Made by a program: the position numbers and the translations under genes. 44,118 bases of DNA from Planctomycetota bacterium (GTDB taxonomy: Bacteria; Planctomycetota; Phycisphaerae; WQYP01), in contig JAJZNX010000068.1 of assembly GCA_021852275.1 (NCBI GenBank), forward strand, positions 1 to 44,118, written 5' to 3'. Below the pieces are notes generated by a model. The model searched no databases. It was given only the letters and a program-made list of their open reading frames with translations, and was not told where the DNA came from. This document shows positions 16,387 to 35,106 of this stretch, piece by piece. Each line of letters opens with the position of its first letter. Within the stretch, counting starts at the first letter, position 1.

Positions 16387-16507
16387 TGGGGCATGAATAT
16401 GGTACTATTTTGGATGAGATGGTTGGTGTTTTGCAGCCTGCGGGGTCAAGTAGGCTGCGAGGCACTGGGAATGTTGTAAAAAAGGTGGAATTATGCCTGG
16501 TGGGTCC

Positions 16508-17704
16508 ATGATTGAAAAGCCGTTGCCGAAGATGACCACTTGGAATCAGCAGCGCATTGTGCGGAAGTTGGAAAGCCTGTTGGATGACCCGGAGGTTTGT
16601 CCACAGGGTGTATTGCCGGCTGAACGAAAACTCGCGGAGCTATTGGATATCAGCCGGCAAACCGTTCGCGTGGTGCTGGCGGAACTGCAGGAACATGGTC
16701 GGATTGTAACGCAGGGCGGTACCCGCGTGGCGGTGCGACATACGGACGATGGTACCACATTCACAGGTGGAACCGCCCGCGGAAAATCCAGGCACCGGAC
16801 CATCGGGGTGGTCTGGGCCCATCATCACGGGCAGGTTCGGCCGCCTCTGGAAAATCGTGTTCCGCCGGGTTCATGGTCCCAGGTGCGGTTCGGCATAGCG
16901 GATGCTTTGCAGGCCCGGGGAGACAGCGTCTTGCTTTTGCAGCCGGGAAATTTGCAGGATAAGCCGGTGGATTGGCTGGCGGCGCAGCGGTTGGACGGGC
17001 TGATCATTGGTACGGAAGTGCCGGAGGAGATTGTCGTTCTATTGGCGGAGGCCAGACGGGCCGGCCGGATTATCGTTACCTCCCAGGACGAACCATGGAG
17101 CCAGGCGATGGACCGGGTGGTACCGGACCATCAGGGCGGGGCGTATGCACTTACCGAGTTTTTGATCAAGCGCCGGCGGCGAAAAATATTACGATTTTGG
17201 GCCGGCGTTGCCAACGGCACGCCGCGCCCGGCGTGGCTGACCCAGCGGGATATCGGCCATGAGCGAGCCATGCGCGAGGCTTCATTGGTGGCCAGGCCCG
17301 CCTTGGAATTCCGGGAAGTCCAGGACACCTGTGAAAAGGTGCATGATTGGTTTGAAATATGTAAGCATCTGTATGCCGGCTATTTGGCACAGGCCTTTAC
17401 CGCTGACGCTCCGGACGCCATTATGGCCCTGACCGACGGGCACGTGCCGGCGGTTATTGCTGCCTGCAGACTGCTGGGTAAGCGCGTTCCGGAAGATGTG
17501 GCGATCGTCGGCTTTGATAATTATTGGGCGGATGTTCCGGAACGGCGCTTTGAATCCACCTCCCCATGGGCCAGCGTAGACAAGCACAACCACGACATTG
17601 GCCAGGCCATGGTCGAATTGCTGTTGTCGCGGTTGGCGGAACCAACGCCCACACCGCCGCAGCTTCGGGTGATGAAAACGGATCTGATAGTGTTACCGGG
17701 GTAG
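16508..17704 (+). CDS. GntR-type HTH / LacI-type ligand-binding hybrid transcriptional regulator
   Basis: N-terminal wHTH (VLPAERKLAELLDISRQTVRVVLAELQEHGRIVTQGGTRVAV) and C-terminal periplasmic-binding-like domain (PDAIMALTDGHVPAVIAACRLLGKRVPEDVAIVGFDNYW). Divergent from the lyase-like gene. Confidence 0.87.
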   Translation: MIEKPLPKMTTWNQQRIVRKLESLLDDPEVCPQGVLPAERKLAELLDISRQTVRVVLAELQEHGRIVTQGGTRVAVRHTDDGTTFTGGTARGKSRHRTIGVVWAHHHGQVRPPLENRVPPGSWSQVRFGIADALQARGDSVLLLQPGNLQDKPVDWLAAQRLDGLIIGTEVPEEIVVLLAEARRAGRIIVTSQDEPWSQAMDRVVPDHQGGAYALTEFLIKRRRRKILRFWAGVANGTPRPAWLTQRDIGHERAMREASLVARPALEFREVQDTCEKVHDWFEICKHLYAGYLAQAFTADAPDAIMALTDGHVPAVIAACRLLGKRVPEDVAIVGFDNYWADVPERRFESTSPWASVDKHNHDIGQAMVELLLSRLAEPTPTPPQLRVMKTDLIVLPG

Positions 17705-17892
17705 GGGGCTGATTCTGGGTGTGGCCGCGGGACTGCAAAAGCCGCAGCTTCTGGGAGTGGCGATCGGTTTATTAATGGTATAGTTATGGAATAGCCTGGA
17801 GTTTTCTCGGCCATTGCGATTGGTTTTTTACAGGCATGGCGGGGGATATTTGCTAAAAACTGCCGGGCATAAATAATTTTCTGATATTTAAT

Positions 17893-17920
17893 TTGACATA
17901 TTGGTTTAATCTGGTATTAT
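17893..17920 (+). promoter_or_regulatory. Sigma-70-type promoter upstream of PEP-CTERM gene 1
   Basis: TTGACA-N16-TATTAT, spacer ends CTGG. Related to six other copies in the window. Confidence 0.65.
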
Positions 17921-18003
17921 AGGGGTTAGTCGCAATCAACGAGATCTTGAATTTTGGGGTTTTAATTCCCGGGCCGGGTGTTCCGGGTTGGGAAAGTTTA
18001 GAG

Positions 18004-18037
18004 GCGTTTCAAAAATAGGAGAATTAAGATGAGACGC
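18004..18037 (+). promoter_or_regulatory. RBS-enclosing stem-loop (copy 1)
   Basis: GCGTTTC (18004-18010) pairs with GAGACGC (18031-18037) across aaaaataggagaattaagat, which contains the Shine-Dalgarno. The G of ATG is in the stem. Confidence 0.5.
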
Positions 18038-18889
18038 AAAATTAGTTTCGGTGTTGGTAGTGGCGTTGGGGTGGCATTGTTGGGAACTGCGGTGATGACG
18101 GCAGGGATTGGCAGTTGCGGTGCCAGTGTTCTGTTTAATGTAAATTTCAATAATGATACGGTGGGCAGTCAGCCGGCCACGGCTTCTTACGTACCTGGTG
18201 TAACATCGATTGATCCGACGGCGATCTATACGACCAGCGGCAGTTATACTGCGACGGTGGAGTCCAGTGTTGGGGGTTTGACGGGTACACCGGTACAGCT
18301 TCAATCCAATAATGATGGTAACCCTGGGTACCAGCCACAACTGGCCTTTAACATTCCGACCGCCATCACCACGGGAACAGTGAGCATTTCGTGGCAGTCG
18401 GAAATGACCGCTTATACGCCACCCACCAGCGGTACGGCAGAAAGCGATGTAACCTTTCGTGCGGGCGGCCCCACAGGCCTGTTTATTTCGCCGCAATATA
18501 CCTGGATTCAAAATACGAATTCATCGGTGTACGGCGGCGTGATTCAGACTCAGCTTGGGACCGATCAGACCGTATCCGGCGCGAATGTTAACTGGACGGT
18601 TAACGGTGGGGTCGATAACTTTTCTCTGGTGTTTAGTCTTTCTACAGACCAGTATACTTTATCCCGTAATGGCAGCCCGATCATAACCGGGGCTTTGGGA
18701 TCCAGCGCCAGTGCTGGATTCAATTCGTTTTCGATCTTGGGCGGAAGTGCGCTGGGTGGGTCCAACGGCCAATGGACCGCAGGCGTTGACAATATCGTCA
18801 TCGCTACACCCGAGCCAGCCGCGCTGGGCCTGATGATTCCTGCGGGTGCGGGCCTATTGCTGTTGGGCCGTAAACGCAAAACGGCCTGA
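18029..18889 (+). CDS. PEP-CTERM sorting domain protein
   Basis: Secretory N-terminus MRRKISFG... and C-terminus TPEPAALGLMIPAGAGLLLLGRKRKTA. Confidence 0.88.
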   Translation: MRRKISFGVGSGVGVALLGTAVMTAGIGSCGASVLFNVNFNNDTVGSQPATASYVPGVTSIDPTAIYTTSGSYTATVESSVGGLTGTPVQLQSNNDGNPGYQPQLAFNIPTAITTGTVSISWQSEMTAYTPPTSGTAESDVTFRAGGPTGLFISPQYTWIQNTNSSVYGGVIQTQLGTDQTVSGANVNWTVNGGVDNFSLVFSLSTDQYTLSRNGSPIITGALGSSASAGFNSFSILGGSALGGSNGQWTAGVDNIVIATPEPAALGLMIPAGAGLLLLGRKRKTA

Positions 18890-19092
18890 GGCCGGCGTTC
18901 AGCAGTCAGTGGGGGGGCGGGCTTCCCGCCCGCCTTGGCGGCCAAGATGGCCGTCCCCCATCGCCGCGGCCCACAATATGCGGTGAATCCCCCGGTGGTC
19001 GGTTAAAAAATAACCCACGAGGTGCCGTGGCAAAGAAATCCGGCCTTTCCGCCGCAGCTCACGGATTGGGTGAAGTTGGGAATTGATGGGGA

Positions 19093-19109
19093 GGGGGCAT
19101 GGTACCCCC
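19093..19109 (+). promoter_or_regulatory. Conserved G5/C5 hairpin upstream of pseudopilin-like gene 1
   Basis: GGGGG-CATGGTA-CCCCC. The same hairpin at 35090-35106 precedes the second pseudopilin-like gene. Confidence 0.45.
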
Positions 19110-19131
19110 GGCTTGATAAAAGAGATTTATC

Positions 19132-20079
19132 ATGGTCAGCCATCCCTTTGTTCGGCAAATACGCCAAATCTCACAGCCCCCAAATGAATGGCCAGAAGAG
19201 GCGTGTCAAGTTTCCCATTTCCCATCTCCCGCTTCCCGTCTCCCGTCGCCCGTCTTGCGGGCCGCAGCCCGCGAGCCTGTCCCGATAACCGACAGAAGAT
19301 CACGGAGATCGGCGTTCACCCTGGTGGAATTATTGGTGGTGATTTCGATTATCGCCATTTTGATTGCCTTGCTTTTGCCGGCGCTGGCGGCGGCGCGGTT
19401 GGATGCGGAAAGCGTTGCGGATGAGTCGAATCTGCGGCAGCTTGGCATGGCGTTTGCTCAGTACACCGTGCAAAGCTTTGATTACCTCCCGGCGGCGGTG
19501 GCGGGCATTCCGCCCAATGGTGCCAATTTCGGTATTTGGGCTCCGACCTGGGATGATGCCATTGCGCCATACCTCGGCGTAACCGGCAAATGGAATCAGG
19601 ACAACGCTCCGGTGTATGCCAACGGAAGCGCGGTGCAATGTGCGGTTCTGCGCAGCCCCTTCGATTTCGAGTATGGCTGGGACAATTTACAGCGGAGATC
19701 CTATGAAATGGTGGCCTCCAATACAGTCGACACCATGGGCGGATACAACAGCACTATGTGGTACGGACAGTATGGTGCGGTGGCGCCATTCCGATGGCTG
19801 AGAGTGCGTAATTTCATGGATATGGATGTTGTGAGCAACACCGGGTTTATTAAGGACCGTTTCAGCGGGGTTAACTACGATCCTAACCAGACCATGGGTT
19901 TTGCCGGGGGATCTTTTACGGATTGGTTTGGCACGCCCGTGAATAACCCGCAGCAGGGCATATCCAACAACACCAGCAATGTGCTGTTTTTTGATTTCCA
20001 CGTGGCTACCGTGCAGGATGGCGGCCTTTATGGCTACAATAATTCGTGGAAACTTTTCGGATGGTATTATAAACCGTAA
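19132..20079 (+). CDS. Type II secretion/type IV pilin-like protein with prepilin N-terminal methylation motif
   Basis: [56 protein letters not shown]-terminus includes [16 protein letters not shown], as in planctomycete DUF1559/H-X9-DG-type proteins. Confidence 0.85.
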
Positions 20080-20425
20080 CCGCCGAGCGGAATTGTACCG
20101 TGGTGTTCATCGCATCCCCCAACCTTGTCGGCCCGAGCTATATTGTTGTTTATTGTCGCGCCGTTCGGCGACGGCGATGCTCGGCGATTTCTCTGGAGGG
20201 CTTCACCTTGCTGTTTAATTCAATTGTCGCCACACCAATTGAGTCATAGGTATTGGTAAACAGGGCATCTTCGCGGCAGCGCTCAAGCACTTGGAGATAA
20301 GCCGCGTCGGCTGCGTCAGGATCTCTGGGCGGGATGAGCATCGGTGGATTGGGGTTGCTGTTGTTCCGGCGGTGACGAAATCCCAAGACGGGGTGTGAAA
20401 GCACGCGGAACGTTAATTAGTTTAT

Positions 20426-20453
20426 TTGACATGCGGTTTTTAGTTGGTATAAT
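20426..20453 (+). promoter_or_regulatory. Sigma-70-type promoter, distal copy of a tandem pair
   Basis: TTGACA-TGCGGTTTTTAGTTGG-TATAAT. Confidence 0.75.
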
Positions 20454-20472
20454 AATGGTTGATTAGGGTTCG

Positions 20473-20490
20473 GCAGCCTGATCTGGCTGC
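20473..20490 (+). promoter_or_regulatory. Leader hairpin
   Basis: GCAGCC-TGATCT-GGCTGC; preserved with a G-T wobble at 33201-33218 (GCGGCC-TGATCT-GGCTGC). Confidence 0.5.
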
Positions 20491-20574
20491 ACAAGGTTGA
20501 TGTTTAATCCGCGGGCTGGGTGTTCTGGTTCGAGAGGTACTGTGTGTGGCAAAATAATTCCAGTTGGATTTTAT

Positions 20575-20602
20575 TTGACATGCGGTTTTTAATTGGTATA
20601 GT
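20575..20602 (+). promoter_or_regulatory. Sigma-70-type promoter, proximal to PEP-CTERM gene 2
   Basis: TTGACA-TGCGGTTTTTAATTGG-TATAGT. Confidence 0.75.
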
Positions 20603-20693
20603 AGTGGTTAATCAAGGTTAGCGGTCCGTTGTGGCTGCCAAAATTTGATATTCAATCCGCGGGCCGGGTGTTCCGGTTCGGGAAATTTTAGAG

Positions 20694-20725
20694 GCGTCTT
20701 AAAAAAGGAGAATAAGATGAGACGC
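20694..20725 (+). promoter_or_regulatory. RBS-enclosing stem-loop (copy 2)
   Basis: GCGTCTT (20694-20700) with GAGACGC (20719-20725) around aaaaaaggagaataagat. Confidence 0.5.
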
Positions 20726-21478
20726 AAATGTAGTTTCGGTTTTGCTGGCGGTGCTGGTGTGGTGGCAGCGGCGATGCTGTCGATGACAATTACTGGTGTT
20801 GCGCAAGCCGCCCCGGTTATAAGTTACAGTTGGTTAACGGCGGCAATCCCTGCACCGTCCGGCAATGTGTTGGAAACTCAGGTTGTCGGGGATCTGACAG
20901 GCTCAACCGGGGCGGGTAATAAGCAGGAGCAGTTGTCTCCCGTTGTTTCAAGCGGCTACCAGGCTACGTTTAATGGTGCGAAAAACTACGATCTGAGCCT
21001 GCCAACCGGAACATACACTTTGTCGTTTGATTTTGAGCTCATCGTCAAGCCGGATCAGTTCTTCACATACATGCGTTCGGGAAACGGCGGCAACTCCCTT
21101 TTTAACGGACCATCCCTAACCGGCCTTTCGACGAGTCAGTGGTATCAAGCATCGGCCACAGTGACCGTAACAAGTGGGCCGTGGGCAGGCGATACGGAGA
21201 TAGGGTATACGGAATACCCACACAGTCCGGCGGTTACTGCCGAGGTGCTGTATGACAACTTCTCTTTTGTTGCCACGGGTGGCGGGTCAGTTTACGAAGC
21301 CAATCCGATCAGCTTTGCTGGGGATACAGCCGGTCAACCGGCACCATCGTCGCAGATCGCAAATGACAATTTTAATACCTCGGAGGTGCTGGCCGTACCC
21401 GAACCGGCCACGCTCGTTTTGATGGCGGCTATGGGTGCAGGTCTGCTGATGGTAGGCCGAAAGCGCAAACCGGCCTGA
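20717..21478 (+). CDS. PEP-CTERM sorting domain protein
   Basis: Start at ATG 20717 (MRRKCSFGFAGGAGVVAAAMLSMTITGVAQA). C-terminus VPEPATLVLMAAMGAGLLMVGRKRKPA. Confidence 0.9.
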   Translation: MRRKCSFGFAGGAGVVAAAMLSMTITGVAQAAPVISYSWLTAAIPAPSGNVLETQVVGDLTGSTGAGNKQEQLSPVVSSGYQATFNGAKNYDLSLPTGTYTLSFDFELIVKPDQFFTYMRSGNGGNSLFNGPSLTGLSTSQWYQASATVTVTSGPWAGDTEIGYTEYPHSPAVTAEVLYDNFSFVATGGGSVYEANPISFAGDTAGQPAPSSQIANDNFNTSEVLAVPEPATLVLMAAMGAGLLMVGRKRKPA

Positions 21479-21497
21479 ATGCATGCTTATTCAGAGA

Positions 21498-21522
21498 GGC
21501 CGGTGGCGCATCGCTACCGGCC
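21498..21522 (+). terminator. Candidate transcription terminator hairpin
   Basis: GGCCGGTGGC-GCATC-GCTACCGGCC then CCTTTCC, 20 bp after the PEP-CTERM gene stop. Confidence 0.45.
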
Positions 21523-21636
21523 CCTTTCCATCTGGTGCGGCGGGGCAGGTGGCGGCGAATTCCTCCGCAGCCCAAAACCTCCGCGTTGTGCGGTGAATTC
21601 CTCCAGGTGGAAGAAATAATTCTGATTGGATTTTAT

Positions 21637-21664
21637 TTGACATGCGGTTCTTATTTGGTATGAT
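21637..21664 (+). promoter_or_regulatory. Sigma-70-type promoter upstream of PEP-CTERM gene 3
   Basis: TTGACA-TGCGGTTCTTATTTGG-TATGAT. Confidence 0.72.
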
Positions 21665-21758
21665 GGTGGTTAATCATGGTTGTTGGTCTGTTCCGACGGC
21701 CGATTAAGTTTTGCTGTTAAACCGCGGGCCGGATGTTCAGGCCTGGGAAAATTCAGAG

Positions 21759-21791
21759 GCGTTTCAAAAAAGGAGAATTAAGATGAGACGC
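21759..21791 (+). promoter_or_regulatory. RBS-enclosing stem-loop (copy 3)
   Basis: GCGTTTC (21759-21765) with GAGACGC (21785-21791) around aaaaaaggagaattaagat. Confidence 0.5.
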
Positions 21792-22640
21792 AAATTAAAT
21801 TCCGAGAGATTTTGCTTGTCGGTAGCGGTGTTGGCTGCTGCTGCAGGGTTATCTTTGGTGCCAGTAATCAGCCGGGCTTCTACCGTAACTGTTACGCAGT
21901 CCTGGACAGACTCCAATCTCTCCTCTCTGCCCAATGGTGCAAGTTCCACCTATTTCAAGATTATCGCTGGCAGCACCGTGACAGGTCTTAACGACAGCAA
22001 TAACGTCGTGGAATTCGATAGCACCGCGAGCCAGAATTTAGGCTGGCCGACTTTTAGTTTTGGCAATTATTTTGAAACGTGGGGTAATGCGGTTAACACC
22101 AGCACCTACGACCCTAATGCCACGGTCACATTTACTTTGTCGGAATCATTGGCTTCGGGTGTCAGCGGAGAGAAGGCAGACACCCAGCTTCCCTCCTATT
22201 ACACCACCTCGCAACAGCAATATCAGAATAAGTTCCAGGCAGTGTATTCTGACGGCAGTAATCTGTACCCGGCATGGACTGCCTACAACAACATGAGCAC
22301 GACATCAACATCCATGGCGACAGTCAGCTCAGCGGCGATGACAACTTTGTCAAATTATTACAGTTATGCTCCCAGTTCTAACCCGAGCATTGTGACAGGA
22401 GCCAGCATTCCCGTGTCGTATATCAACAATGGCAACAGGGTGTGGTTGACCGGTTTTAGCACCACGACATCTGACTTCAGTCAGAAATCGGGAACTGGTT
22501 ATGCATCTGTGGCCTACCTGGACAACTTTAGTGTTACGGTAGCCACGACCTACACTCTTCCCGAACCGGCCACGCTCGTTTTGATGGCGGCTATGGGTGC
22601 AGGTCTGCTGATGGTAGGCCGAAAGCGCAAAGTAGCCTAA
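21783..22640 (+). CDS. PEP-CTERM sorting domain protein
   Basis: Start at ATG 21783 (MRRKLNSERFCLSVAVLAAAAGLSLV). C-terminus LPEPATLVLMAAMGAGLLMVGRKRKVA. Confidence 0.9.
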   Translation: MRRKLNSERFCLSVAVLAAAAGLSLVPVISRASTVTVTQSWTDSNLSSLPNGASSTYFKIIAGSTVTGLNDSNNVVEFDSTASQNLGWPTFSFGNYFETWGNAVNTSTYDPNATVTFTLSESLASGVSGEKADTQLPSYYTTSQQQYQNKFQAVYSDGSNLYPAWTAYNNMSTTSTSMATVSSAAMTTLSNYYSYAPSSNPSIVTGASIPVSYINNGNRVWLTGFSTTTSDFSQKSGTGYASVAYLDNFSVTVATTYTLPEPATLVLMAAMGAGLLMVGRKRKVA

Positions 22641-22656
22641 GACCACGCTTTTTCCG

Positions 22657-22695
22657 GGAGGCCGGCGGCAATTTGCCGCCGGCCTCCTCTTTCTT
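22657..22695 (+). terminator. Intrinsic terminator
   Basis: GGAGGCCGGCGGC-AATTT-GCCGCCGGCCTCC followed by TCTTTCTT. Confidence 0.7.
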
Positions 22696-22953
22696 GTTGT
22701 CGCCATTGCAGCTCATGGGTGGTAAAACAGGCCCTTGCAGTACCTTTGAGGCATCGGCCGTACCCGGACCGCCAGGGTTTGATCTGATGGCCGACGGTAT
22801 GTGGGGTATGCTACTTTGGCGAGCACACGAAATACGAAAAAGGACGACGAGTCTATACCAGAAGTTGCGTGTACTGCTTCAACAAATGGTGCGGGTTTCC
22901 AGGTGCAGGGAATCTTACTTGCAGAAAGTATACCGGGTAGTTAATTCAAAGGA

Positions 22954-24234
22954 ATGAGAATGCATCAACGGAGGTTATTATACCGGCTGGTGATATTGGC
23001 TGGGTCAGCCGGTGTGGCGTTGCTGGGGGGCTGTGTTAAATCGGCTTCCGGGCAGATTGATGTGCCCGCCCCGGTACGCGTTCCTGAACACGTGCAGAGA
23101 GGGTCAGGATTATTTTCAATGCTTGCCCCGCATGCGCTGGTGGTGGTGGGGCGTGCAGCTCCGGCTGTGGAGCAAAAGGCGGCAGCGCAACTGGCTAAGG
23201 CCCTGCGCGAAGCAGGTGGACCGGCACATAATCTGTTCCATGCCCACCACGTCAATGCGGATTTGGAACTTGCCGCCACGCATCATCTGCTGGTCGTGGG
23301 TACTGGTGCTGACAATCGCATTCTGGCACGTGTTCCCAGCCACTGGGCGATGAACCGCAATCGCTTTTATCGCACGCACAAACCTTATGCGCCGTGGATG
23401 CCCGCGCATGGCTATTACGTGGCTGGTTATGGTGTGTTTCCTTCAAACGAAGCGGTTGGCTATGTGGAATGTGATCGCAATCCGTACTGGGCCTACGCGA
23501 CGAATCTGCTGATGATGCGGCGCCATGGTCCAAAACCCAAGCTTGCCTACCGGCAGATTGTACGCTTGACCGGCAATTCTCCCGCCGGGGTGGTTCTGGC
23601 CGTGCGCGCCTTTTTGAATGAGCATTTACTCAACGGTGTGGCGACGGCCAACAATACGATGCCGGGGGCGATGAGTTTATGGACCCTCGATACGGCGCAT
23701 CTGGCGTTGCCCGGAGAGGCCCCTGGTTGGATTCCCGAGGGAACACTGCATGCGGGAAGGCGATCGCTGATTTTTGCGGGTTGGCAACTGGCGGATTCCA
23801 TGATGTATGCCGGCTTGCGCGAGGTGAGCGGCCAGACGGCGCAAAAGATATGGCGGGCTAAGTACTTAACCGAACGGGGCTGGAATTATTCGCACCATGT
23901 TGTGATTAATCCGGAGTTTCCCATGTCGCGCAGTCCCCTGTTTGATGCCTCCCTGGCCAGACGCGCCGGCGGGAATGAATTTTTTGTGGCGCAGTTCGCA
24001 TCGACCGCACAGGCCCGATTGGCCCAACAAGCCGCGGAAAAATCACTCAATAACCGGGGGCGCTACAGCCAGGCTCCATGGCAGACTATGGTGGTGGATG
24101 GTGTTCAATGGCAGCAGTCCCGTTTTGATTTTAACACCACGGTTTTCGGCAAGTATCTGGTGATGGAGAGTTTCGGTAAGAACCACGTTTCATTGGCACT
24201 AACAGCGATATCGAAGGCGATGGTGAAGCGATGA
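22954..24234 (+). CDS. Putative secreted lipoprotein, unknown function
   Basis: Signal peptide with lipobox LLGGC (RLVILAGSAGVALLGGCVKSA). 4-nt ATGA overlap with the next gene suggests translational coupling. Confidence 0.7.
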   Translation: MRMHQRRLLYRLVILAGSAGVALLGGCVKSASGQIDVPAPVRVPEHVQRGSGLFSMLAPHALVVVGRAAPAVEQKAAAQLAKALREAGGPAHNLFHAHHVNADLELAATHHLLVVGTGADNRILARVPSHWAMNRNRFYRTHKPYAPWMPAHGYYVAGYGVFPSNEAVGYVECDRNPYWAYATNLLMMRRHGPKPKLAYRQIVRLTGNSPAGVVLAVRAFLNEHLLNGVATANNTMPGAMSLWTLDTAHLALPGEAPGWIPEGTLHAGRRSLIFAGWQLADSMMYAGLREVSGQTAQKIWRAKYLTERGWNYSHHVVINPEFPMSRSPLFDASLARRAGGNEFFVAQFASTAQARLAQQAAEKSLNNRGRYSQAPWQTMVVDGVQWQQSRFDFNTTVFGKYLVMESFGKNHVSLALTAISKAMVKR

Positions 24235-27200
24235 TGTTTTTGCACCGCAAGAGGTTCTTAGCCCGATCCAAGCGAAGACCGCGCGTGGGCGGGTATGTTG
24301 GCCTGGTCGTACTGTGGACATTGGCATTTGCGACCGGTTTGGCTCGAGCACGACCAACCGAACGAGTGCTGGTGGTGGGGCAAAAGTTACGTGCGGTGGC
24401 CAGGCTCTGGCAGAAACAGCCGTCGCTGGCCGTTAAGACCAGCAGCACCGCGGCATTGCCCGGCGATCCGGCCGTTCTGGCAACGCACTGCGACGTGATC
24501 GTCATTGAGCCGGAGAAACTCAAGCCTGCGCAGATGCAGGCCTTGGAAGCGTTTGTGCGGGGCGGCGGGGGGTTATGGATTGCCGCGGACAGCCACGATT
24601 GGACCAGTTGTGCAGGTAGTTGGTGGTCTGTACTTTCGGGCAGTGTGCCGCTGGATGCACGCGTGGCATTGACAGCCAGGCTTCAGGCGAAGAGGCATTC
24701 GCCGCTGGCGGGGCTGAATTTCGCATCTCTGGGACGATTGGCCCGGGTGCAAAGCGTAGCGCCGCCCGGAGAGAGCCGCCTGGGTTTGCTCAACATGCTT
24801 TCGCCGTGGAGTTTTTCCAAACCGCTATGGCAGGACAACTGGCAATGCTGGCTGACCATGTCCGATCCCGAGCGGTTGCCGGCGCTGGTTGTAACACATT
24901 ACGGTGCCGGGCGTACGGTGGTATCGGGTGTACGGTTGACGGTGACATCGCTGCTGCGGTGGAAAGATTATGGCCGTATGTGCCGGCGGGTGTTGCAATG
25001 GATGGCTCCGCGGATAAAGATACGTGTATCGGTTCGGCCAAGGGTGCTGGTACAGGGTTTGACCGGACCTGCCTGGTGGTCAGCTCCGCTGGCGGCGGGA
25101 TTGCGCGGCATGGGGCAGCGTCGGACCTTGGCGGGTTTGCTGTTACCACCGGAGGCACTGGAAGAAGCGGGCTACCATGCATCGACGAAAACGGTGGCAC
25201 CCTGTGAAATACTGCTGGGACCGGCCGCTCAAGATCGGGCCGCCCCCGGGGCGCGTCTGATTCTGCGAGCTCCGGATTTGACTGCATCTACGCAGGAACA
25301 GACCTTCGACTGGCATAAGGTTCGCACGCTCTCGCAACTACGCCGGGTACAACAATTATCTGTGGGTGGTGTCTGGCGCGATGTAACGCTGCCTGATCTG
25401 GTGAAGCCGACAGCCGAGGCATTACCGCACCTGATTCTTCCCGTGGGTCGGCCGGCGGTATCTTTGCCGCAAGCCTGGCGCATGCGGTTCACCAAAGATT
25501 CAGATAGTCGCGAAGGCCGCGAGCATGGCTGGTTTAAGCCGGGATATAACACACAGTCCTGGCCGCAGGGCAAGCTTGGCCGGCAGACTACGCAGCTTTT
25601 TGGCGCCAGCACCGGTTACGATGGAGCCATCTGGTACCGCGGCTGGATCAAGGTAGGTGCGGCATCACAGACCGCCAACGCCGCCCTGGTGTTGCAGGCT
25701 CAGGACGATTCGATGCGTATCTACATCGACGGCCAAGATGTTGCCGTCGCGCCGCAAACCGTGGTGTTGCCGCTGCGTAAAATCGGCCCAGGCAGGCATC
25801 TGCTGGTGGTTCGCACCTATGGCAACCTGCGTCATAACTACGGCCTGATCAACATTCAGGCCAGATTTTTGCCACTGTTGTGGCGGGCTGATCCAAAGAT
25901 GCGCGGCTGGGAAAAAGGCTGGATGCAGCCGAAGGTGGATACCCGCAACTGGAAGCCCGTGGCCCGGAATTTTGGCACCCAGGCGAGCACCCGCCAGGGC
26001 TGGGTGCGCTTTGCCGTGGATGTGCCGGCCCATGCGGCGCCATATGAGATGGTGATTCATAGTGCGCTGAACCTGACATCTCATGTGTTTGTTAACGGCA
26101 GGCTGGTTGGAGCATACGGTCTGGAGCGTGCGGGACGGTATGTTTTACCAGCCGCGGCCTTTCGCAGCGGGCGTAATGTAGTGGTGTTGTGGGCTCATTG
26201 GTTCGATGCCCAGGCCAAATCAATTCAGCCGCAGATTGTGCCGTTGGGGCAGTTGGAATATCGCGCTACCATCAAGGCCAAACGTAATGGAGAGAGCCTG
26301 CTGGCGAAGCTGAACTATCCAAACCAGACGTTTTATTACCAGCCGGCGGCGGTTAGCATGACAGTCAATGGGCTTGCGGTGGGGGGATGGCTATGCAACC
26401 GCGGGTCACAGCCAATGCTGCTGGCGGCGCACGTTCTTCGCGCAGGGAAAAATGACGTAAGTATCCGTATGACGCGGTCTGCCCATGGCACCTGTGGTCT
26501 GGCATCTTTGTCCGCAGTACAGATTCCGGCGGACATGCAAACGCCGCTGGCGGGGTGGGAAGAATTACCGGGTAACCTGGCGTCGGCCGGGTGGTATCTG
26601 CCCGGTGCTGCGGGCGGCCATTGGAAGCCTGTGGGTCGCACGGATTTACAGTCACGCAAAAAAATCTGGGAGGTTCATCCCACCCTGAATCTGAAATGCC
26701 AGCGGTATGTTTACCGAACCTTCCTGCGGTTGACCGCGGGCGATCTCAAACGAATCTGGACTCTGGACCTGGACGGCCCGGTGATTAAACGCCTGCTGGT
26801 GAACGGTCAGGTGATAACACCGGTGGAGGGCCGCTATTATCCGCTCAATGCAGCACTGCACCGGGGTCTTAATGAAATTGCCTGCGCTCCGGATGAAAGT
26901 ACGTGGCGGGGTTTAAATATCCGTGTGCCATTCGGTTACGGTGGAGGTGTGCATATACCGGTGCTGCGGCATGATGTGGCACCACTGATACCCGTGGTTC
27001 CTGCCCTCCAGACATATCAACTCAATCATGTATTTTCGGTAGGTCGTTGGAAACCACCCGTCGACAGCCGGACCTTGTTGGCCTGGCCCAACGGTGCGCC
27101 CGCTGTGGTCATGTACCGTACCGGCAGGCTGATGGAAATTCTCGCAGCACCGGGCATATTCGATCAGGTGTTGCCGGGGCCGGATCTGGCGAGCCGAGCC

Positions 27201-30044
27201 ATGCAGGATGGCGGTACACCCGTGATCGAATACGAATACGGCCAGCAGATTTATCGAGATCTTTTTCGCGGTGACCGAATTGAACAGCTACTGCCTGCTC
27301 TTTTGGATTTGGGAAGGCGGCGGCCGGCCTATATTCAGTCCCTGCAGGCGCGTGGTCATGCGGTTCTCGTGACCATACGCAGCGGTTCGCGCAATACTTC
27401 AGGGCAACTGGCATGGCGTTGGCTGGATTGGGAAGGGCAATATCTTCAATCGGGTGAAAAGGCGGTGTCAATCGGAGTCGGTGGAAACAAAATAGTATCC
27501 ATTCCCATGCCGAATCGTGCGAAGATGCCGACGGGCAGTCGTCTGGGGCTGTTCTATCACCTGCGCTTAGGCTTGCTGTCAGCGCACAAGCGAAAAATAT
27601 ACAGCTATGTCAGCCGGGTAATTGCACCCAATCTGGCCGTCGCGGTGGCCATTCGGACGGGCAGCGATCTTCACGCTTTGGATGCGGCGACTGCACCTTT
27701 TGCCAAACGCATCTTGAATGAATCGATCGATCAATTGGTTCAGCGGTCCATTTACCTGCCCGGTCAAACGGTGACTCTGCATCTTTTTGCCACCAGCAAC
27801 CGGCCCCGGAAAACACCGGTAAGCGTAGAGGTAAAAGCTGTCGGCGGTTTGACTGGGCAAACGGTGGAAAGAGATTTCCAGTGGACTCTTTCTCCCTGGG
27901 CTCAGAAGCGCATAAGGATTCACCTGGGGCCAGACTGCACGCGGGTGCAGCAGCCGTGGCGTGTGGCGGTAACTGCGTCAGCAGGGGCCAAGGTTCTTTC
28001 CCGCGACGGGCTAAGCTTTGTCGTGGCCATGCCGCAGGGACAGGTGCGTGATCGGATGGTGGCGGAGTGTCAGGGGCGCGGGGCGGGCGGTTACATGTGG
28101 TCTATGCCACCCAACGCTCACGCATTGGAGCACATCTATGGCACAGATGCCTTGCCTGCCAAAGGCGGGGGACCGTGGTGGACGAGGGTGCGTTATGGAG
28201 GCGACGGCAACTGGCTTATCGCCGAGGGTATTCACCGTGGCGCCGGCAACGGGGATCAGACCGGACTGCTGTGGGGGCCGTTTTACGAGCAATATCGCGG
28301 TGAAATTATGGACAGCTATGGATGGTTTCCCAACGGAGAAAGCATCCGGCAATGGTGGGCACCGTACGGCGTACGACAAATCGCGCGGCTTTGGGGACGC
28401 AAATCCGTGGTTTTTGCCATGAGCGACTGGTGGCAATACGACGCAGGGTATCCGGAAGACAGCTACACCACCATGCAGATGTTTAATGCCTGGTTGGAGG
28501 CCCATAAGGGGCAGGTGATCGCCGGCCAGAGGCTGGACGGCCAACCGGTTATCCGTCCCACGCTTTCGGGCATGATCCGGGCGGTGCAGAAGCAATATCC
28601 GAATGTTTACCGGTACTTCGTTGTGCAGGGATTGGCGGACGATGCCGCGTACACCAACGCCAAACTTGATGCCGTGGCACCGGGAACTATTCAATCAGGT
28701 CAGGCGGCCTATGCGGATTGGCTGCCGGATACGGTCGGCGGCGCGGCCCTGGCGGGCAAATGGGCTGCGGCATTGGCCATCAATATCGTAGATGCGGACA
28801 ACCATCCTTTTGCCGGCGACTGGCAATACGCTCTGGAAACCGAAAGTCTGCGTGCCCTTGGCCCTTCCGGCAGTCTGGACAATTCCTGGGAGCGGCCTCA
28901 GCTTTATCACGCGGTGCGTCAGGCCGTGGTTAACAATTTGCCTCTGGATCCCGCGGAGTGGCAACGAAGACAACTTGATTCCCGCTGGCAGGTGATTGCC
29001 AATGCCAAGGGAGATTTTAAGCGGGTGTTGAATCTGACCTGTGATGAGTACATGGCGTCTCCACATGGCGGATTGCTGCCGCGTTATCCGGGGGCGCACA
29101 TCGGCCATGGAGCCTTGCCGGATCATTGGCGTATCAACAATCGGCTGGATCGGCTGGAAATGACGATTGGCGTAAAGCAGCCCTTATCGCCGTTGCTGGT
29201 GGTAGGTGATAACGGCCTGAATTGGGTGCGCTATTACCGCATGTTGGGTAAACTACGCAGTGCCGGCCTGCCCCTCGGTGGTGCGGTAAGCATTGCGAAT
29301 TTGAATGCTTTGGACCCACGGCAGGTGCCGGGGCTGGTTTGGCTGGCGGGACAAACGGTCGATGCAGCTTCGCTGAAGGCGGTGATGCGACTCGTGTCCA
29401 AAGGCGTGCCATTGCTGCTGGTCGGGCAGGTTCCACAAAAGGCTGGACGTATCAATCTGCGGCAATGGCTGGGTGTATTCTATGTTGCCACGCCGCCGCA
29501 CGGGCCGCTGCAGCAAAGGTTCTATCCAACCGCGGGGGTGCGCGGAAGAGATCTGGCAGATATGGCTGGAGCGGGAGGTTTTATGCCCCCATCGCATTAC
29601 ATTCTCTCCAAATCAGGGCCTTTAAAGCCTGTCGTAACGCGGCAGGGACGTCTGGTGGTGGGCGTCTATCATAAAGGCCCCATGAAACTGGTATTCGCAA
29701 CTCCGGTGGGGCGGCGGGTGTCGCAAAGCGATCCGGCGGTGCTGCGGGCCGCGGTGCAGGCTTATGAGGCATTGCGGAATCCAACCGTGCAATGGCCTGG
29801 CACGGCGACGGGTTATGCGTTCAAAGGCTACGATGGATACACGTATATCGTGGTACAGAATTTGCGGTCACGATCGAGCAACGTCCATTTGCGGGTACAT
29901 GAAGCGTCCAACGTAAAGTGGCATGCTGCCGATTTGTTGACGGGGGCGCGTATTACCGTCACCACGAAACACCATGCCTTGGTGTTGCAGGTTCATCTGA
30001 CGGCGGTTGGAGCCACGGTCGTTGTTCTGGCGAAAGCGAAGTGA
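24231..30044 (+). CDS. Giant (1937 aa) secreted multidomain protein, putative carbohydrate-active
   Basis: Hydrophobic N-terminal segment (GLVVLWTLAFATGLARA), GATase-like domain (CDVIVIEPEKLKPAQMQALEAFVRGGGGLWIAADS), repeated GH2-like jelly-roll segments (WYRGWIKVG...MRIYIDGQDV; GWVRFAVDVP...SHVFVNGRLVGAYG), and a Trp/Tyr-rich region (GGYMWSMPPNAHALEHIYG...GLLWGPFYEQYRGEIMDSYGWFPNGES). Confidence 0.7.
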   Translation: MMFLHRKRFLARSKRRPRVGGYVGLVVLWTLAFATGLARARPTERVLVVGQKLRAVARLWQKQPSLAVKTSSTAALPGDPAVLATHCDVIVIEPEKLKPAQMQALEAFVRGGGGLWIAADSHDWTSCAGSWWSVLSGSVPLDARVALTARLQAKRHSPLAGLNFASLGRLARVQSVAPPGESRLGLLNMLSPWSFSKPLWQDNWQCWLTMSDPERLPALVVTHYGAGRTVVSGVRLTVTSLLRWKDYGRMCRRVLQWMAPRIKIRVSVRPRVLVQGLTGPAWWSAPLAAGLRGMGQRRTLAGLLLPPEALEEAGYHASTKTVAPCEILLGPAAQDRAAPGARLILRAPDLTASTQEQTFDWHKVRTLSQLRRVQQLSVGGVWRDVTLPDLVKPTAEALPHLILPVGRPAVSLPQAWRMRFTKDSDSREGREHGWFKPGYNTQSWPQGKLGRQTTQLFGASTGYDGAIWYRGWIKVGAASQTANAALVLQAQDDSMRIYIDGQDVAVAPQTVVLPLRKIGPGRHLLVVRTYGNLRHNYGLINIQARFLPLLWRADPKMRGWEKGWMQPKVDTRNWKPVARNFGTQASTRQGWVRFAVDVPAHAAPYEMVIHSALNLTSHVFVNGRLVGAYGLERAGRYVLPAAAFRSGRNVVVLWAHWFDAQAKSIQPQIVPLGQLEYRATIKAKRNGESLLAKLNYPNQTFYYQPAAVSMTVNGLAVGGWLCNRGSQPMLLAAHVLRAGKNDVSIRMTRSAHGTCGLASLSAVQIPADMQTPLAGWEELPGNLASAGWYLPGAAGGHWKPVGRTDLQSRKKIWEVHPTLNLKCQRYVYRTFLRLTAGDLKRIWTLDLDGPVIKRLLVNGQVITPVEGRYYPLNAALHRGLNEIACAPDESTWRGLNIRVPFGYGGGVHIPVLRHDVAPLIPVVPALQTYQLNHVFSVGRWKPPVDSRTLLAWPNGAPAVVMYRTGRLMEILAAPGIFDQVLPGPDLASRAMQDGGTPVIEYEYGQQIYRDLFRGDRIEQLLPALLDLGRRRPAYIQSLQARGHAVLVTIRSGSRNTSGQLAWRWLDWEGQYLQSGEKAVSIGVGGNKIVSIPMPNRAKMPTGSRLGLFYHLRLGLLSAHKRKIYSYVSRVIAPNLAVAVAIRTGSDLHALDAATAPFAKRILNESIDQLVQRSIYLPGQTVTLHLFATSNRPRKTPVSVEVKAVGGLTGQTVERDFQWTLSPWAQKRIRIHLGPDCTRVQQPWRVAVTASAGAKVLSRDGLSFVVAMPQGQVRDRMVAECQGRGAGGYMWSMPPNAHALEHIYGTDALPAKGGGPWWTRVRYGGDGNWLIAEGIHRGAGNGDQTGLLWGPFYEQYRGEIMDSYGWFPNGESIRQWWAPYGVRQIARLWGRKSVVFAMSDWWQYDAGYPEDSYTTMQMFNAWLEAHKGQVIAGQRLDGQPVIRPTLSGMIRAVQKQYPNVYRYFVVQGLADDAAYTNAKLDAVAPGTIQSGQAAYADWLPDTVGGAALAGKWAAALAINIVDADNHPFAGDWQYALETESLRALGPSGSLDNSWERPQLYHAVRQAVVNNLPLDPAEWQRRQLDSRWQVIANAKGDFKRVLNLTCDEYMASPHGGLLPRYPGAHIGHGALPDHWRINNRLDRLEMTIGVKQPLSPLLVVGDNGLNWVRYYRMLGKLRSAGLPLGGAVSIANLNALDPRQVPGLVWLAGQTVDAASLKAVMRLVSKGVPLLLVGQVPQKAGRINLRQWLGVFYVATPPHGPLQQRFYPTAGVRGRDLADMAGAGGFMPPSHYILSKSGPLKPVVTRQGRLVVGVYHKGPMKLVFATPVGRRVSQSDPAVLRAAVQAYEALRNPTVQWPGTATGYAFKGYDGYTYIVVQNLRSRSSNVHLRVHEASNVKWHAADLLTGARITVTTKHHALVLQVHLTAVGATVVVLAKAK

Positions 30045-30051
30045 TGGCACG

Positions 30052-31872
30052 ATGAAAATTGGTGCAAGCTATTATCCGGAATTGCTGCCCCAGGAAGATT
30101 GGTCGCGGGATTTAGCCGCCGGTCACAAGATCGGCTTGTCCTGCCTTCGCTGCGGGGAGTTCGCATGGTCGCGATTATCTCCCGTCCCTGGCGCATGGCA
30201 TGTGGATTGGGCTAAACGCTTTCTCGATGTGGCGGCGAAGCACGGTTACGATGTGATCTGGTGCACTCCAACCGCGGCTCCTCCCCCGTATCTGCATGAT
30301 CGCTGGCCGGATTTACAGGCCGTCGGGGTGGATGGAAGCCGGCCGCCGGTCGGCGTGCGGAGAAACTATTGCCCGTCGCATAAGGGATATCTGGCACTGG
30401 CCGAACAAGTGGCCGGGCGTTTGGCCGATGATTTGCATAAATCCTCCGCTATTGCCGGTTGGCAAGTGGATAATGAACTGGCCGGGGATGGATTTACGTG
30501 CTGGTGTGAAAATTGCAGAAAGGCGTTTCACGCATGGCTTTTAGATCGTTATCAATCACTTGATGCGCTCAATGAGCAATGGCAGACGGACATCTGGAGC
30601 CAGCGTTACACCGCGTGGGAACAGATTCCAATGCCATTCCAGAACATCTCTTCTCACGCTCCGGCGCTGCGCCTGGCGTATCGCAGATTTCGCTCGGAAG
30701 TGTGGAGAGCCTTCTATGAGCGGCAGGCGAATGCCCTGCGCCGCCGCGGAGATTGTACGGTTACGACCAATTTTTACGATTTTACCTGGGATGTGCCTTT
30801 TGATTTATGGCAGTGGAGCGGTGGCTTGGATGCCATGGGAATGTGCCGCTATGTGGAGGACGATCTTTACATGCAGTTTTCTCTGGCCGTGGGGCGTGGA
30901 ATCGCTGCCGACCGACCGTTGTGGGTTCTGGAGCAGAAAGCCGGTCAGCAGGGTGCCCAAAATTTATTTCCGGAGAACCTATCGCGTCTGAAGGTGCATT
31001 TACGTCGGTGTGCCGAAGCGGGTGTGTCCCGTGCCATTTACTGGCACCTGCGGCAGCACTCCGCAGGATGTGAAATGGAGCACGGGGCGGTATTGCGGCA
31101 TGACGGCAAGCCGACGCGAATAGCACGGGCGATCGCCGCTGCCATTGCGGAAACAAAAATAATTGCCGCAGTCGAAACGGCCCAGGGTGTTCAACTGGTA
31201 TTTTCGTTCCAGCAGCATTGGGCCAACGCCCATCGGCCGGCCATGCCCACAAAATGGGATTATCGTGCGCGGCTCGAACAAGACTGGTACGCCGGAGCAA
31301 AAGATATTTTTGGTGAGGTGGCGGTGGCTTGTCCCGTGACTGAGGATACGCCGCGTGTTTTGCTCATACCGCTGGCGCAAATGGAAGAGCCGGGACTTAT
31401 TGATAAAATCGGTCGTTGCCTGCAAAGTGGCGGCACCGTTGTGTCCACCGTGGATCTGTGCCGGCTGGATATGGAAAATGGTGTTTACCGCCGTCGTCCG
31501 CTGTGGATATTGCAACGTTGGGTGAAAGTTCCGGATCTTGAGATCCTGCATTTGCAAGATGGCTTTGCGGTTGATGGTCGGATTGGGGCTGCGCGGTTTA
31601 AAGGAACGATATTCTGGGCGTTGCCAGAGGGGCCGGCCATGGGGCATGTCCGGGCGATTGGGCGGCTGCGCTGGAAGAACATGAGCGGACCTGTCGCATT
31701 GGACTTCAAGATTGGTGCTGGGCGGTTGGTAGTAAGCCTGGCCGAGCTGGATCGCTGCGGAGTGACGGCGTTGATTCGCGCTGCGGTGCCGAAACGGGAT
31801 ATACCGGCATCCGATGTTCCAGCCACAGGACGCAAGCCTGCACGCGCCAAGCATGTGGCGGGTACGTCATGA
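30052..31872 (+). CDS. GH42-family beta-galactosidase
   Basis: IGASYYPELLPQEDWSRDLAAGHKIGLSCLRCGEFAWSRLSPVPGAWHVDWAKRFLDVAAKHGYDVIWCTPTAAPPPYL; GWQVDNELAGDGFTCWCENCRKAFHAWL (acid/base region); PLWVLEQKAGQQG (nucleophile region). Confidence 0.93.
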   Translation: MKIGASYYPELLPQEDWSRDLAAGHKIGLSCLRCGEFAWSRLSPVPGAWHVDWAKRFLDVAAKHGYDVIWCTPTAAPPPYLHDRWPDLQAVGVDGSRPPVGVRRNYCPSHKGYLALAEQVAGRLADDLHKSSAIAGWQVDNELAGDGFTCWCENCRKAFHAWLLDRYQSLDALNEQWQTDIWSQRYTAWEQIPMPFQNISSHAPALRLAYRRFRSEVWRAFYERQANALRRRGDCTVTTNFYDFTWDVPFDLWQWSGGLDAMGMCRYVEDDLYMQFSLAVGRGIAADRPLWVLEQKAGQQGAQNLFPENLSRLKVHLRRCAEAGVSRAIYWHLRQHSAGCEMEHGAVLRHDGKPTRIARAIAAAIAETKIIAAVETAQGVQLVFSFQQHWANAHRPAMPTKWDYRARLEQDWYAGAKDIFGEVAVACPVTEDTPRVLLIPLAQMEEPGLIDKIGRCLQSGGTVVSTVDLCRLDMENGVYRRRPLWILQRWVKVPDLEILHLQDGFAVDGRIGAARFKGTIFWALPEGPAMGHVRAIGRLRWKNMSGPVALDFKIGAGRLVVSLAELDRCGVTALIRAAVPKRDIPASDVPATGRKPARAKHVAGTS

Positions 31873-31924
31873 GTGGCGGCGGCGTATTCGAGCAGTTAGA
31901 TATGGTGGCGGTTTGTGAGGCGGT

Positions 31925-32860
31925 GTGATCATGCAGATTGGTGACCGAAATGTCAATTCCCAGCCGGCGATAAACGGCAGATTTTTTGAAGGCGTCTGGG
32001 GTCATCGCATTTTCACCTCCTGGTTTTATTTGTTGATGGCACTGTTGCTTGTGGGTTTAACATGTTACCGGCGATGTTATGCGACTCTGCCCGCAGCAAT
32101 TCCACACCTGGTTGTTCCGCATACCGTAATGAATCCAGGCGTTACAGCCCGGCCGTCGGATCCAGCCTGGACCGGACCGCCGCTTATCTCGCATTTGACG
32201 CTTTCACTGGGCTGTAAACCGGCCGGTCATCCTCTGCCGACAAAGATTTGGTTGCAGTGGAACCGGAATTGGCTGTATATCCGTTTTGTCTGTCTTGGAC
32301 CAAAGCCCTATGCTCCCTATGGGAACAAGCGAAACGCGCCGCACTATCGCGGCGATGTAGTGGAGGTATTCCTGGACCCGGTGGGTGACAGTCGGCAGTA
32401 CTTCGAGATTGAGGTTTCCCCGGCCAACGGTGTGTTCATGCAGAACACCTTAATTACCACCAAGCCGGAATCGCAGGCGAATGGTGTACTGACCGGGAAT
32501 ATTTTACGGCGCAATTATTGGCCTGATCCCGGCTACGATATTCGCGGGCTCCGAACCGCGGTGTCGATCCATCGTGCGGGCAAAGCGTATGTTTGGACCA
32601 CGGACTTGGCAATTCCCGCCGCGAGCGTACTGAAACGCACGGGGCGCAGGCGCTTTCGCAAGGGAATGAAATTGCGGATGAATTTACTGCGATATCACTA
32701 CACCGGACCGCTCAATGATGCGCATCGCCAGCTTGTGGCGATGAATTGGTCACCGGTGGCGTGCGGGCGTCCGCACGTATCCCCCATGCGGATGGGGTGG
32801 TTGCTTCTGGGCAAACGTCCCCGGCGGGAGCCGCTTCATATCCGGAGGCGTGGTCAATGA
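31925..32860 (+). CDS. Secreted CBM9-like carbohydrate-binding protein
   Basis: N-terminal TM/signal (ILTSWFYLLMALLLVGLTCY-like stretch), then IWLQWNRNWLYIRFVC...YRGDVVEVFLDPVGDSRQYFEIEVSPANGVF, characteristic of CBM9-like modules. GTG start at 31925 or ATG at 31931. Confidence 0.7.
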   Translation: MIMQIGDRNVNSQPAINGRFFEGVWGHRIFTSWFYLLMALLLVGLTCYRRCYATLPAAIPHLVVPHTVMNPGVTARPSDPAWTGPPLISHLTLSLGCKPAGHPLPTKIWLQWNRNWLYIRFVCLGPKPYAPYGNKRNAPHYRGDVVEVFLDPVGDSRQYFEIEVSPANGVFMQNTLITTKPESQANGVLTGNILRRNYWPDPGYDIRGLRTAVSIHRAGKAYVWTTDLAIPAASVLKRTGRRRFRKGMKLRMNLLRYHYTGPLNDAHRQLVAMNWSPVACGRPHVSPMRMGWLLLGKRPRREPLHIRRRGQ

Positions 32861-32925
32861 CGTGCGCCGTTGGGAGGATGGATAATGTCGCAAGTATTCG
32901 CGGCATAAAATATTTAAAAATTTAT

Positions 32926-32953
32926 TTGATCTGCAGCGATTTCATGGTATAGT
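32926..32953 (+). promoter_or_regulatory. Divergent copy of the repeated promoter
   Basis: TTGATC-TGCAGCGATTTCATGG-TATAGT with the same TTTATTTGA lead-in as other copies. Confidence 0.5.
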
Positions 32954-33153
32954 TATGGTTGCAAATTGTAAATTCAAGTCCGGTATTTGGGCTTGGAGGC
33001 ATATTACAGGTGATGTCGAAAAGCGATAAAGGGTCGCAAAGCCAGTTTCCGGATTCAAGTTCCGATCATCGGTCTTTCCGGCGAAACATGTTTGGCGTTT
33101 ATTCGGGGCGTCTGACGAACCCGCAAATAGAGGTAAATATTTTTTGGATTTAT

Positions 33154-33181
33154 TTGACATGCGGATTTTAATTGGTATAAT
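33154..33181 (+). promoter_or_regulatory. Sigma-70-type promoter, distal copy of a tandem pair
   Basis: TTGACA-TGCGGATTTTAATTGG-TATAAT. Confidence 0.75.
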
Positions 33182-33303
33182 AATGGATAATTAAGGTTCG
33201 GCGGCCTGATCTGGCTGCAAAAGGTTGATGTTTAATCCACGGGCCGGGTGTTCTGGTTCGAGAGGTACTGTGTGTGGCAGAAATAATTCTGGTTGGATTT
33301 TAT

Positions 33304-33331
33304 TTGACATGCGGTTTTTAGTTGGTATGAT
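33304..33331 (+). promoter_or_regulatory. Sigma-70-type promoter, proximal to PEP-CTERM gene 4
   Basis: TTGACA-TGCGGTTTTTAGTTGG-TATGAT. Confidence 0.73.
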
Positions 33332-33422
33332 AGTGGTTAATGAGAATTGGCGGTCCGTTGTGGCTGCCCAAATTTGACGTTAAATCGGCGGGCCGGGTGT
33401 TCCGGTTCGGGAGATTTTAGAG

Positions 33423-33455
33423 GCGTCTTAAAAAAGGAGAAATAAGATGAGACGC
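33423..33455 (+). promoter_or_regulatory. RBS-enclosing stem-loop (copy 4)
   Basis: GCGTCTT (33423-33429) with GAGACGC (33449-33455) around aaaaaaggagaaataagat. Confidence 0.5.
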
Positions 33456-34952
33456 AAGGTGAGTTCCGGGAGAATTAGCATTTCCGTGGCGATACTAGCG
33501 GCGCTGCAGATGATTGCCGCTGTTTCAGCACAAGCGGGCACCACTTACTATTGGGATCCGACGGGATCAAAAACCACGACTGGCGGTGGTAACGGCACGT
33601 GGGATACAACCTCCGCCAATTGGTACAATGGTGCCAGCGACGTCGCATGGGTGAACGGCTCTTCAAGTTATGCAAACTTTGTTGCCAATAGCACGACATT
33701 AACTTACGCGGTAACTATGGCTTTCGGAGCCGACATTACGGCTGGCAGTCTGACCTTTACGCCTACTTCTGATTCCTATGGGTTCAGTATTGATGCTCCG
33801 ACGTCAACTAGTCAAACAGCGAGTCTCAACATCGGTACGCTCTATGTTTCAACGCATGGCGGGACGGTGACTTTTGGACCTAATGGGGGCACCAGCGGCA
33901 CACTCATCGTCACGATCGGCAGCGTCGATAACACGGGAGACGGTACCGCCGGCATCCAGGTCATTGGATCAAATGACACGGTGAATCTGACTGGATCAAG
34001 CAATGGGTCGACCACCGTGGATGGGGGAACACTTAACGTGAGCCAAGCCGGTGGATTTGGCTCGAGTCTCGTGTTCAGGGTCGGAACGATCAACGCACTG
34101 ACAGACATGACTTCCAACGTCAATATGGGCGAGTTGGCGGGTGGCATCACCTTCGGCGGCGGACAGACGCTGGAGTTCACCAACAGCGACGCAGCTCCTA
34201 CAGACAACAATGCCCCCGTCAGCACTGTCGCCGATGTGCTGGCCAGCACCACCGTGCAGTGGGATGGCAACGAAAATAACAATGACACCTCATCTCAGGG
34301 TGCGACGGCCACATTGGAGAAATCCGGTTCCGGTACCCTGATCCTGACGGGCAACTATTATTCGGGTGGTGCCACAACAGTAGCAACAGGCACACTGGAA
34401 GTGGATGGATCGTTTGCCACGAACGCATACTCGAAGAGTACCAGCGCCTTTACGGTTGACAGCGGCGCCACGCTGCAGGGCACGGGTTCGATTGCCGGCA
34501 CGACGACGGTGAACAGCGGTGGTATTCTGGCTCCGGGAACCGCCATGGCGTCGGCCGGCCATAGCACCGGCACCACACTCACCCTCACCGGTGGTGCCAC
34601 GCTCGACAGTGGCAGCGTGCTGGATTTTACGCTCGGTTCAACCAGTGATTTGATTAACACGTCTGCTCTGACATTGAATCAGAATATCACCATCAACATT
34701 ACACAAGGTTCGGGTTTTGGCTCCGGCATCTATAAGTTGATTGGCTATACCAGTCTAACTGACAACAGCGCCGGATTTTCCGGTTGGACCATCAACGGAC
34801 TGTCCGGACTTAATTACAGCCTGTCCAACGATACTGCTACCAATTCGATTGATTTAACGGTGGCACCTGTGCCCGAACCTGCGGCGCTGAGTTTGCTGGC
34901 CATTGGCGGCGTGGGCCTGCTGCTGGTTAGCAGGCGGCGAAAAATGGCCTGA
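33447..34952 (+). CDS. PEP-CTERM protein with autotransporter-associated beta-strand repeats
   Basis: [11 protein letters not shown] signal; beta-helix-like repeats ([56 protein letters not shown]); C-terminus [27 protein letters not shown]. Confidence 0.92.
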
Positions 34953-35089
34953 TCGGCCAAGGGTGAAAGATGGCTGGTGGCGGATGGTATACGTTCGGCC
35001 ATTCGCGAATATTCGCAACGGAATGGCCGGGACAATAAAAGTCGGCCTTTCCGCCGCAGTCCACAGATGGGTAAAGTTGGGAATTTGCG

Positions 35090-35106
35090 GGGGGCGTGGT
35101 ACCCCC
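35090..35106 (+). promoter_or_regulatory. Conserved G5/C5 hairpin upstream of pseudopilin-like gene 2
   Basis: GGGGG-CGTGGTA-CCCCC, equivalent to 19093-19109. Confidence 0.45.

Follow-up and report, generated by a model that had tools for sequence, protein, structure and literature searches.

The window analysed here is the whole 44,118-nucleotide stretch of a planctomycete contig, and it carries four genes for PEP-CTERM proteins, all on the plus strand. Gene A (18029 to 18889) was identified from its translation, which starts with MRRK and ends in TPEPAALGLMIPAGAGLLLLGRKRKTA, without a Pfam match. Genes B (20717 to 21478) and C (21783 to 22640) score over the cut-off for TIGR02595, and gene D (33447 to 34952), which contains an autotransporter-type repeat, matches PF07589 and PF12951. 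Adjoining gene A on the same strand is a regulator gene (16493 to 17704) in which a domain search found a GntR HTH and a LacI-type sugar-binding domain. Pseudopilin-like proteins (19132-20079 and 34903-36039) and a GH42 beta-galactosidase (30007-31872) are also encoded in the window, which further holds a weak match to CBM9 and large proteins, of which one weakly matches GH39. A bacterial class A RNase P RNA is located at 1357-1835 on the plus strand (278 bits).

All four genes begin within a potential stem-loop that has the Shine-Dalgarno sequence (SD) AGGAG in its loop. The preliminary description of this DNA had placed a 7-bp stem at each gene, and its coordinates proved exact, with 7/7 pairs in 4/4 window genes. 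At gene A the stem-loop spans 18004-18037 (plus strand, as for the others), with the 5' arm GCGTTTC at 18004-18010, the SD at 18017-18021 and the 3' arm GAGACGC at 18031-18037. The same 3' arm is found at 20719-20725 in gene B (stem-loop 20694-20725; 5' arm GCGTCTT, 20694-20700; SD, 20706-20710), at 21785-21791 in gene C (21759-21791; GCGTTTC, 21759-21765; SD, 21771-21775) and at 33449-33455 in gene D (33423-33455; GCGTCTT, 33423-33429; SD, 33435-33439). It consists of the G of the ATG (18029, 20717, 21783 and 33447 in A to D) plus codons 2 and 3, and an eighth A-U pair is possible that takes in the U of the AUG. Loops in the window are 18-20 nt long. Each copy has exactly one G-U pair, C and U each facing one of the G's of GAG, which confirms the earlier statement that the CTT and TTC versions of the 5' arm both pair. 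The AGA CGC codons had been called rare-looking; among the arginine codons of the ORFs counted, this is true of AGA (45/737), whereas CGC is common (219/737). Predicted stem energies in the window are -9.0 to -10.3 kcal/mol, and the z-scores calculated against shuffles, about -1.9 to -2.4, are modest.

The stem-loop belongs to a longer cassette in which an extended -10 promoter, an upstream hairpin, a linker, the stem-loop and the signal-peptide start (MRRK) follow one another, and whose promoter consensus is approximately TTGACA-N16-TATAAT. Promoter-like elements on the plus strand are TTGACA-N16-TATTAT, read from the sequence, for gene A (17893-17920), and TTGACA-N16-TATAGT with an extended -10 TGG for gene B (20575-20602), for which 0 matches are expected in shuffles. 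The corresponding elements of genes C and D lie at 21637-21664 and 33304-33331. The upstream hairpin of gene B lies at 20660-20680 on the plus strand, with equivalents near 17966-17992, 21722-21745 and 33389-33409. Over approximately 165 nt the promoter-leader is 79-91% identical among three of the window copies, and the gene A copy matches over a shorter stretch. The sequences show the four copies to be paralogues of one promoter-leader cassette and not independent, so that taken alone they give little proof of a selected stem. Truncated promoter-leader copies without SD or start codon are found in tandem upstream of gene B (20421-20535, plus strand) and gene D (33144-33263, plus strand); these may be remnants, or the source of transcripts traversing the full leader. 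Genes B and C share near-identical 3' PEP-CTERM-coding DNA (21408-21470 and 22560-22632) as well as the 5' cassette, with largely different bodies, and look as though both gene ends had been copied as modules.

The leader is also present in two genomes of the same genus (G002 and G004) and in one of the same family (G023). Ten further leaders from these genomes all show 7/7 pairs, with no unpaired 5' arm among them, giving 14/14 with the four of the window; this set includes the related leaders e and f of G002. Pairing is kept in arm variants that change codon 3 from Arg to Cys (GCGTCTT/GAGATGC and GCGTTTC/GAGATGC), to Gly (GCTTCTT/GAGAGGC) or to Ser (GCTTCTT/GAGAAGC), codon 3 being CGC, TGC, GGC or AGC among the 14 leaders. 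In the 98 cells of this alignment there are zero mismatches, and all non-Watson-Crick cells are G-U; loop length ranges from 17 to 23 nt. The proposal that selection acts on the pairing of the RNA, not on the protein, is thus supported, since the pairing outlasts both amino-acid-changing substitutions in codon 3 and changes in the 5' arm. In contig C27 of G002 (L238, 10013-11239), leader e and 28 codons are fused into the middle of leader c, which creates a short upstream reading frame ahead of the PEP-CTERM gene.

Searches blind to the 5' arm were also carried out. Among ATGAGANGCAA starts in 28 genomes of the family, 14/14 family leaders pair 7/7. Four other hits in these genomes include a G014 gene that pairs and its G025 relative, which does not; the remaining two have no credible reading frame and are unpaired. 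Across approximately 85,000 species, 8/8 Planctomycetota leaders pair, compared with 0/8 unrelated hits, the named records being Planctomycetota MAGs, one of them labelled Phycisphaera mikurensis. The complete stem occurs at 0/28 near-identical ATGAARNGCAA starts in the same genomes, and thus at 0/38 unrelated look-alike starts (2 + 8 + 28), a tally that excludes the G014 gene, which has a complete stem. A homologue of gene A in G002, situated in an operon without the cassette, was seen by inspection to have no such stem. When the arms were re-dealt among the 14 leaders, the observed pairing was reached with P=0.01, and pair counting gave 99% of cells paired as against 95.1+/-1.1 when shuffled and 24-56% when slid. 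A covariation check had been recommended in the preliminary description; two-sided change was found in one column pair, in just two sequences from one genome, and the covariation is real but thin. These counts overstate independence, the 14 leaders being related, and the comparative support, which leans on leaders e and f of G002, is real but modest.

PF07589 gives 58 PEP-CTERM matches in the genome, or about 59 genes with gene A. Retrieval of the other genes, together with DNA and model searches of the genome, revealed the full stem-loop at only 4 of these, so that the earlier description of a stem in all four PEP-CTERM leaders holds for the window and not for the genome. In the 47 other PEP-CTERM leaders that could be tested there is no enrichment for SD-enclosing stems (mean 7.49 versus 7.63 in re-dealt sequences). 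An element common to a whole PEP-CTERM regulon was rejected on these grounds, and the suggestion of a co-regulation device for such a regulon is not supported; the absence of the stem from other PEP-CTERM genes indicates a local leader family instead. The model search of the genome and its relatives that had been proposed did recover the copies in G002, G004 and G023, but no wider high-score spread, as there was no high-score match outside G000, G002, G004 and G023 in a class-wide search of 298 genomes. The stem-loop is confined to one leader family, in carbohydrate loci of a small number of genomes from the family to which the window belongs. A PEP-CTERM gene from another family (G162:C88:6572-6605, L148) has GTGTTTC/GAAACAC around its SD (E=4.5e-4), and was left out of the counts because it was found with a pairing-aware model. 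It is suggestive, with the same design possibly arisen independently. A further match, G049:C17 (E=2.8e-5), was discarded as it has no PEP-CTERM end. A stretch on the minus strand of G000 C93 (11930-11993, L131) resembles part of the leader (E=1.6e-6 with the sequence model); its start is degraded, and it may be a relic.

The leader marks PEP-CTERM genes within glycoside-hydrolase loci, those of the relatives holding enzymes of families 2, 5, 42 and 63-like. Homologues of the window GntR/LacI-type regulator adjoin the leader at two loci of G002 and in G004, and the GntR and LacI-type pair of Pfam domains also occurs in G002 C27 and G023 C172. Such a sugar regulator is present in 5/5 loci where visible (the window, G002 C75, G002 C27, G004 C1 and G023 C172).

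At 37 C the SD is predicted to be 0.81-0.99 unpaired in 13/14 leaders, and 0.89-0.99 in the four of the window; the minimum-energy fold of G002f is a different structure. Most leaders have synonymous codon pairs that would fold more stably, so that the stability of the stem is not maximised; this ranking is not decisive, since there are folds of greater stability that differ in structure.

Shared ancestry alone might explain the pairing, if the leader was copied recently, initiation favoured AGA after ATG, the signal peptide favoured basic residues, and the match between the arms was coincidental or neutral. The identity that three copies show across the entire cassette and stem z-scores of about -2 are consistent with this, and by our own estimate a chance 7/7 arm match would arise at a few per cent per leader, making a single ancestral coincidence possible. 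We consider this explanation unlikely, however, because the G023 leaders keep their arms despite a diverged linker, the pairing survives changes in codon 3, and the unrelated look-alike starts tallied above lack the complete stem. An inverted repeat in DNA, bound as an operator by a dimer of the neighbouring GntR/LacI-type regulator, would fit the recurrence of that regulator beside the leader. This is very improbable given that the arms lie between 17 and 23 nt apart depending on the leader, that the half-sites show G opposite T and no other mismatch, and that the repeat straddles the start codon approximately 110 nt downstream of the promoter; variable loop length and exclusively G-U departures point to RNA rather than to a DNA operator of fixed geometry. 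Occlusion of the start codon by the stem would suit a stem that opens in response to temperature, as an RNA thermometer, or to a metabolite, but we give such a device scarcely any credence, as the mean start-codon accessibility predicted for the window copies barely moves (0.33-0.36 at 10 C and 0.39-0.45 at 55 C). Furthermore, no strong shared alternative partner for either stem arm, of the conserved and mutually exclusive kind expected of a two-state riboswitch, was found in class I leaders; a perfect 7-bp competitor for the 5' arm exists in G002f only. Rfam at gathering score returned RNase P only for the whole window, and nothing relevant was found in 17700-22800 at E<=5, which leaves the leaders tested with no match to a known Rfam element. 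The near-flat folding and the lack of a shared alternative partner disfavour both thermometer and simple riboswitch readings, and leave the translational switch raised in the preliminary description a conjecture.

FourU and ROSE thermometers, in which the SD is paired, likewise have a stem at the start site, but in the window leaders the SD is open at 37 C and the fold is predicted to be stable to 55 C, so predicted melting gives a thermometer no support. Among initiation hairpins that overlap coding sequence, that of the MS2 coat gene likewise has a stem over the initiation region, whose stability sets translation; the AUG is there in the loop, whereas here the stem contains it, with codons 2-3 as an arm. 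A protein clamp is another candidate, in which CsrA on the GGA of the loop SD would stabilise the closed form and couple the surface protein to the Csr system, by analogy with RsmA at psl, where binding of the protein in the loop of a hairpin strengthens the pairing of the SD (PMC7652899). At psl the initiation region of a surface or matrix gene is closed by a hairpin whose loop is bound (PMC7652899, PMC2984543), as would be the case in the PEP-CTERM leader, but the psl leader pairs the SD itself, whereas here the SD is in the loop, the AUG is in the stem, and the protein partner is a candidate. The csrA gene is present in 27/28 genomes checked, with at least two copies in most genomes of the window's family, and every loop of the 14 leaders has a GGA at the initiation region, as CsrA targets do. 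This motif is weakly specific, however, since any good SD contains GGA. In addition, SELEX ligands mostly had hexaloops, and at most four contiguous pairs (PMC7652899), in contrast to the 17-23 nt and 7 bp seen here, and a conserved second site is not in evidence; on balance we find a CsrA clamp decidedly doubtful.

We favour, as somewhat the more probable account, a genuine RNA stem-loop that gates the start of translation in one PEP-CTERM gene family, its leader being a duplicated cassette. Selection has probably acted on the stem as a feature of the RNA, and it is best read as a translation-damping initiation hairpin. Once codon 3 is transcribed, the nucleotides of codons 1-3 would pair with GCGTYTY upstream of the SD, leaving the SD single-stranded in an A-rich loop of 17-23 nt and the U and G of the AUG paired. 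The 30S subunit could then dock on the SD, yet placement of the AUG would need 7-8 bp to be opened, so that the stem would lower and gate initiation and make it sensitive to whatever stabilises or opens the stem. The sequences show the potential to pair, the retention of pairing in relatives and the genomic setting; from these we infer that the stem forms in vivo, represses, and is regulated rather than acting as a fixed rheostat. It probably holds down a surface protein produced in sugar-degrading loci, the transcription of which is probably set by the GntR/LacI-type regulator. It is conceivable, if unlikely, that these leaders represent a hitherto undescribed family of initiation hairpins acting in cis, in which codons 2-3 supply one of the arms. 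Such hairpins would gate PEP-CTERM translation in glycoside-hydrolase loci under sugar regulation, by way of a trans factor such as CsrA, and would spread onto different protein bodies by duplication of a promoter-leader-signal-peptide cassette.

The start-codon stem is a concrete and testable candidate for PEP-CTERM regulation outside the Proteobacteria, in a group for which little RNA regulation is known; a search of the literature available found no work on PEP-CTERM leaders in planctomycetes. It also illustrates how RNA pairing can constrain signal-peptide codons, with amino-acid changes tolerated if the stem is kept. For specialists the finding is neat rather than very surprising, and the distribution seen is narrow. 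The sigma-54/PrsK-PrsR motif is likewise a conserved element upstream of PEP-CTERM genes, but it belongs to the promoter DNA and has been reported from Proteobacteria alone (PMC1569441), whereas here a sigma-70-like promoter is combined with an RNA stem. By inspection, the window promoters lack the sigma-54 -24 GG / -12 GC motif and have the TTGACA-N16-TATAAT-like form instead. The paper describing that motif anticipated that further PEP-CTERM regulatory elements were still to be found (PMC1569441). A second class of PEP-CTERM leader was observed at L037, L047, L053, L065 and L068 in the window's own genome and at L242 near 9730 in G023, in which a hairpin like CCCGCCCGGATTGGCGGG precedes a further hairpin, the end of which lies immediately upstream of the SD. 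The arms of this SD-proximal hairpin (GCCCC/GGGGC, GCTCCC/GGGAGC and others) differ between copies and still pair, and this class may offer a better case for covariation than the start-codon stem.
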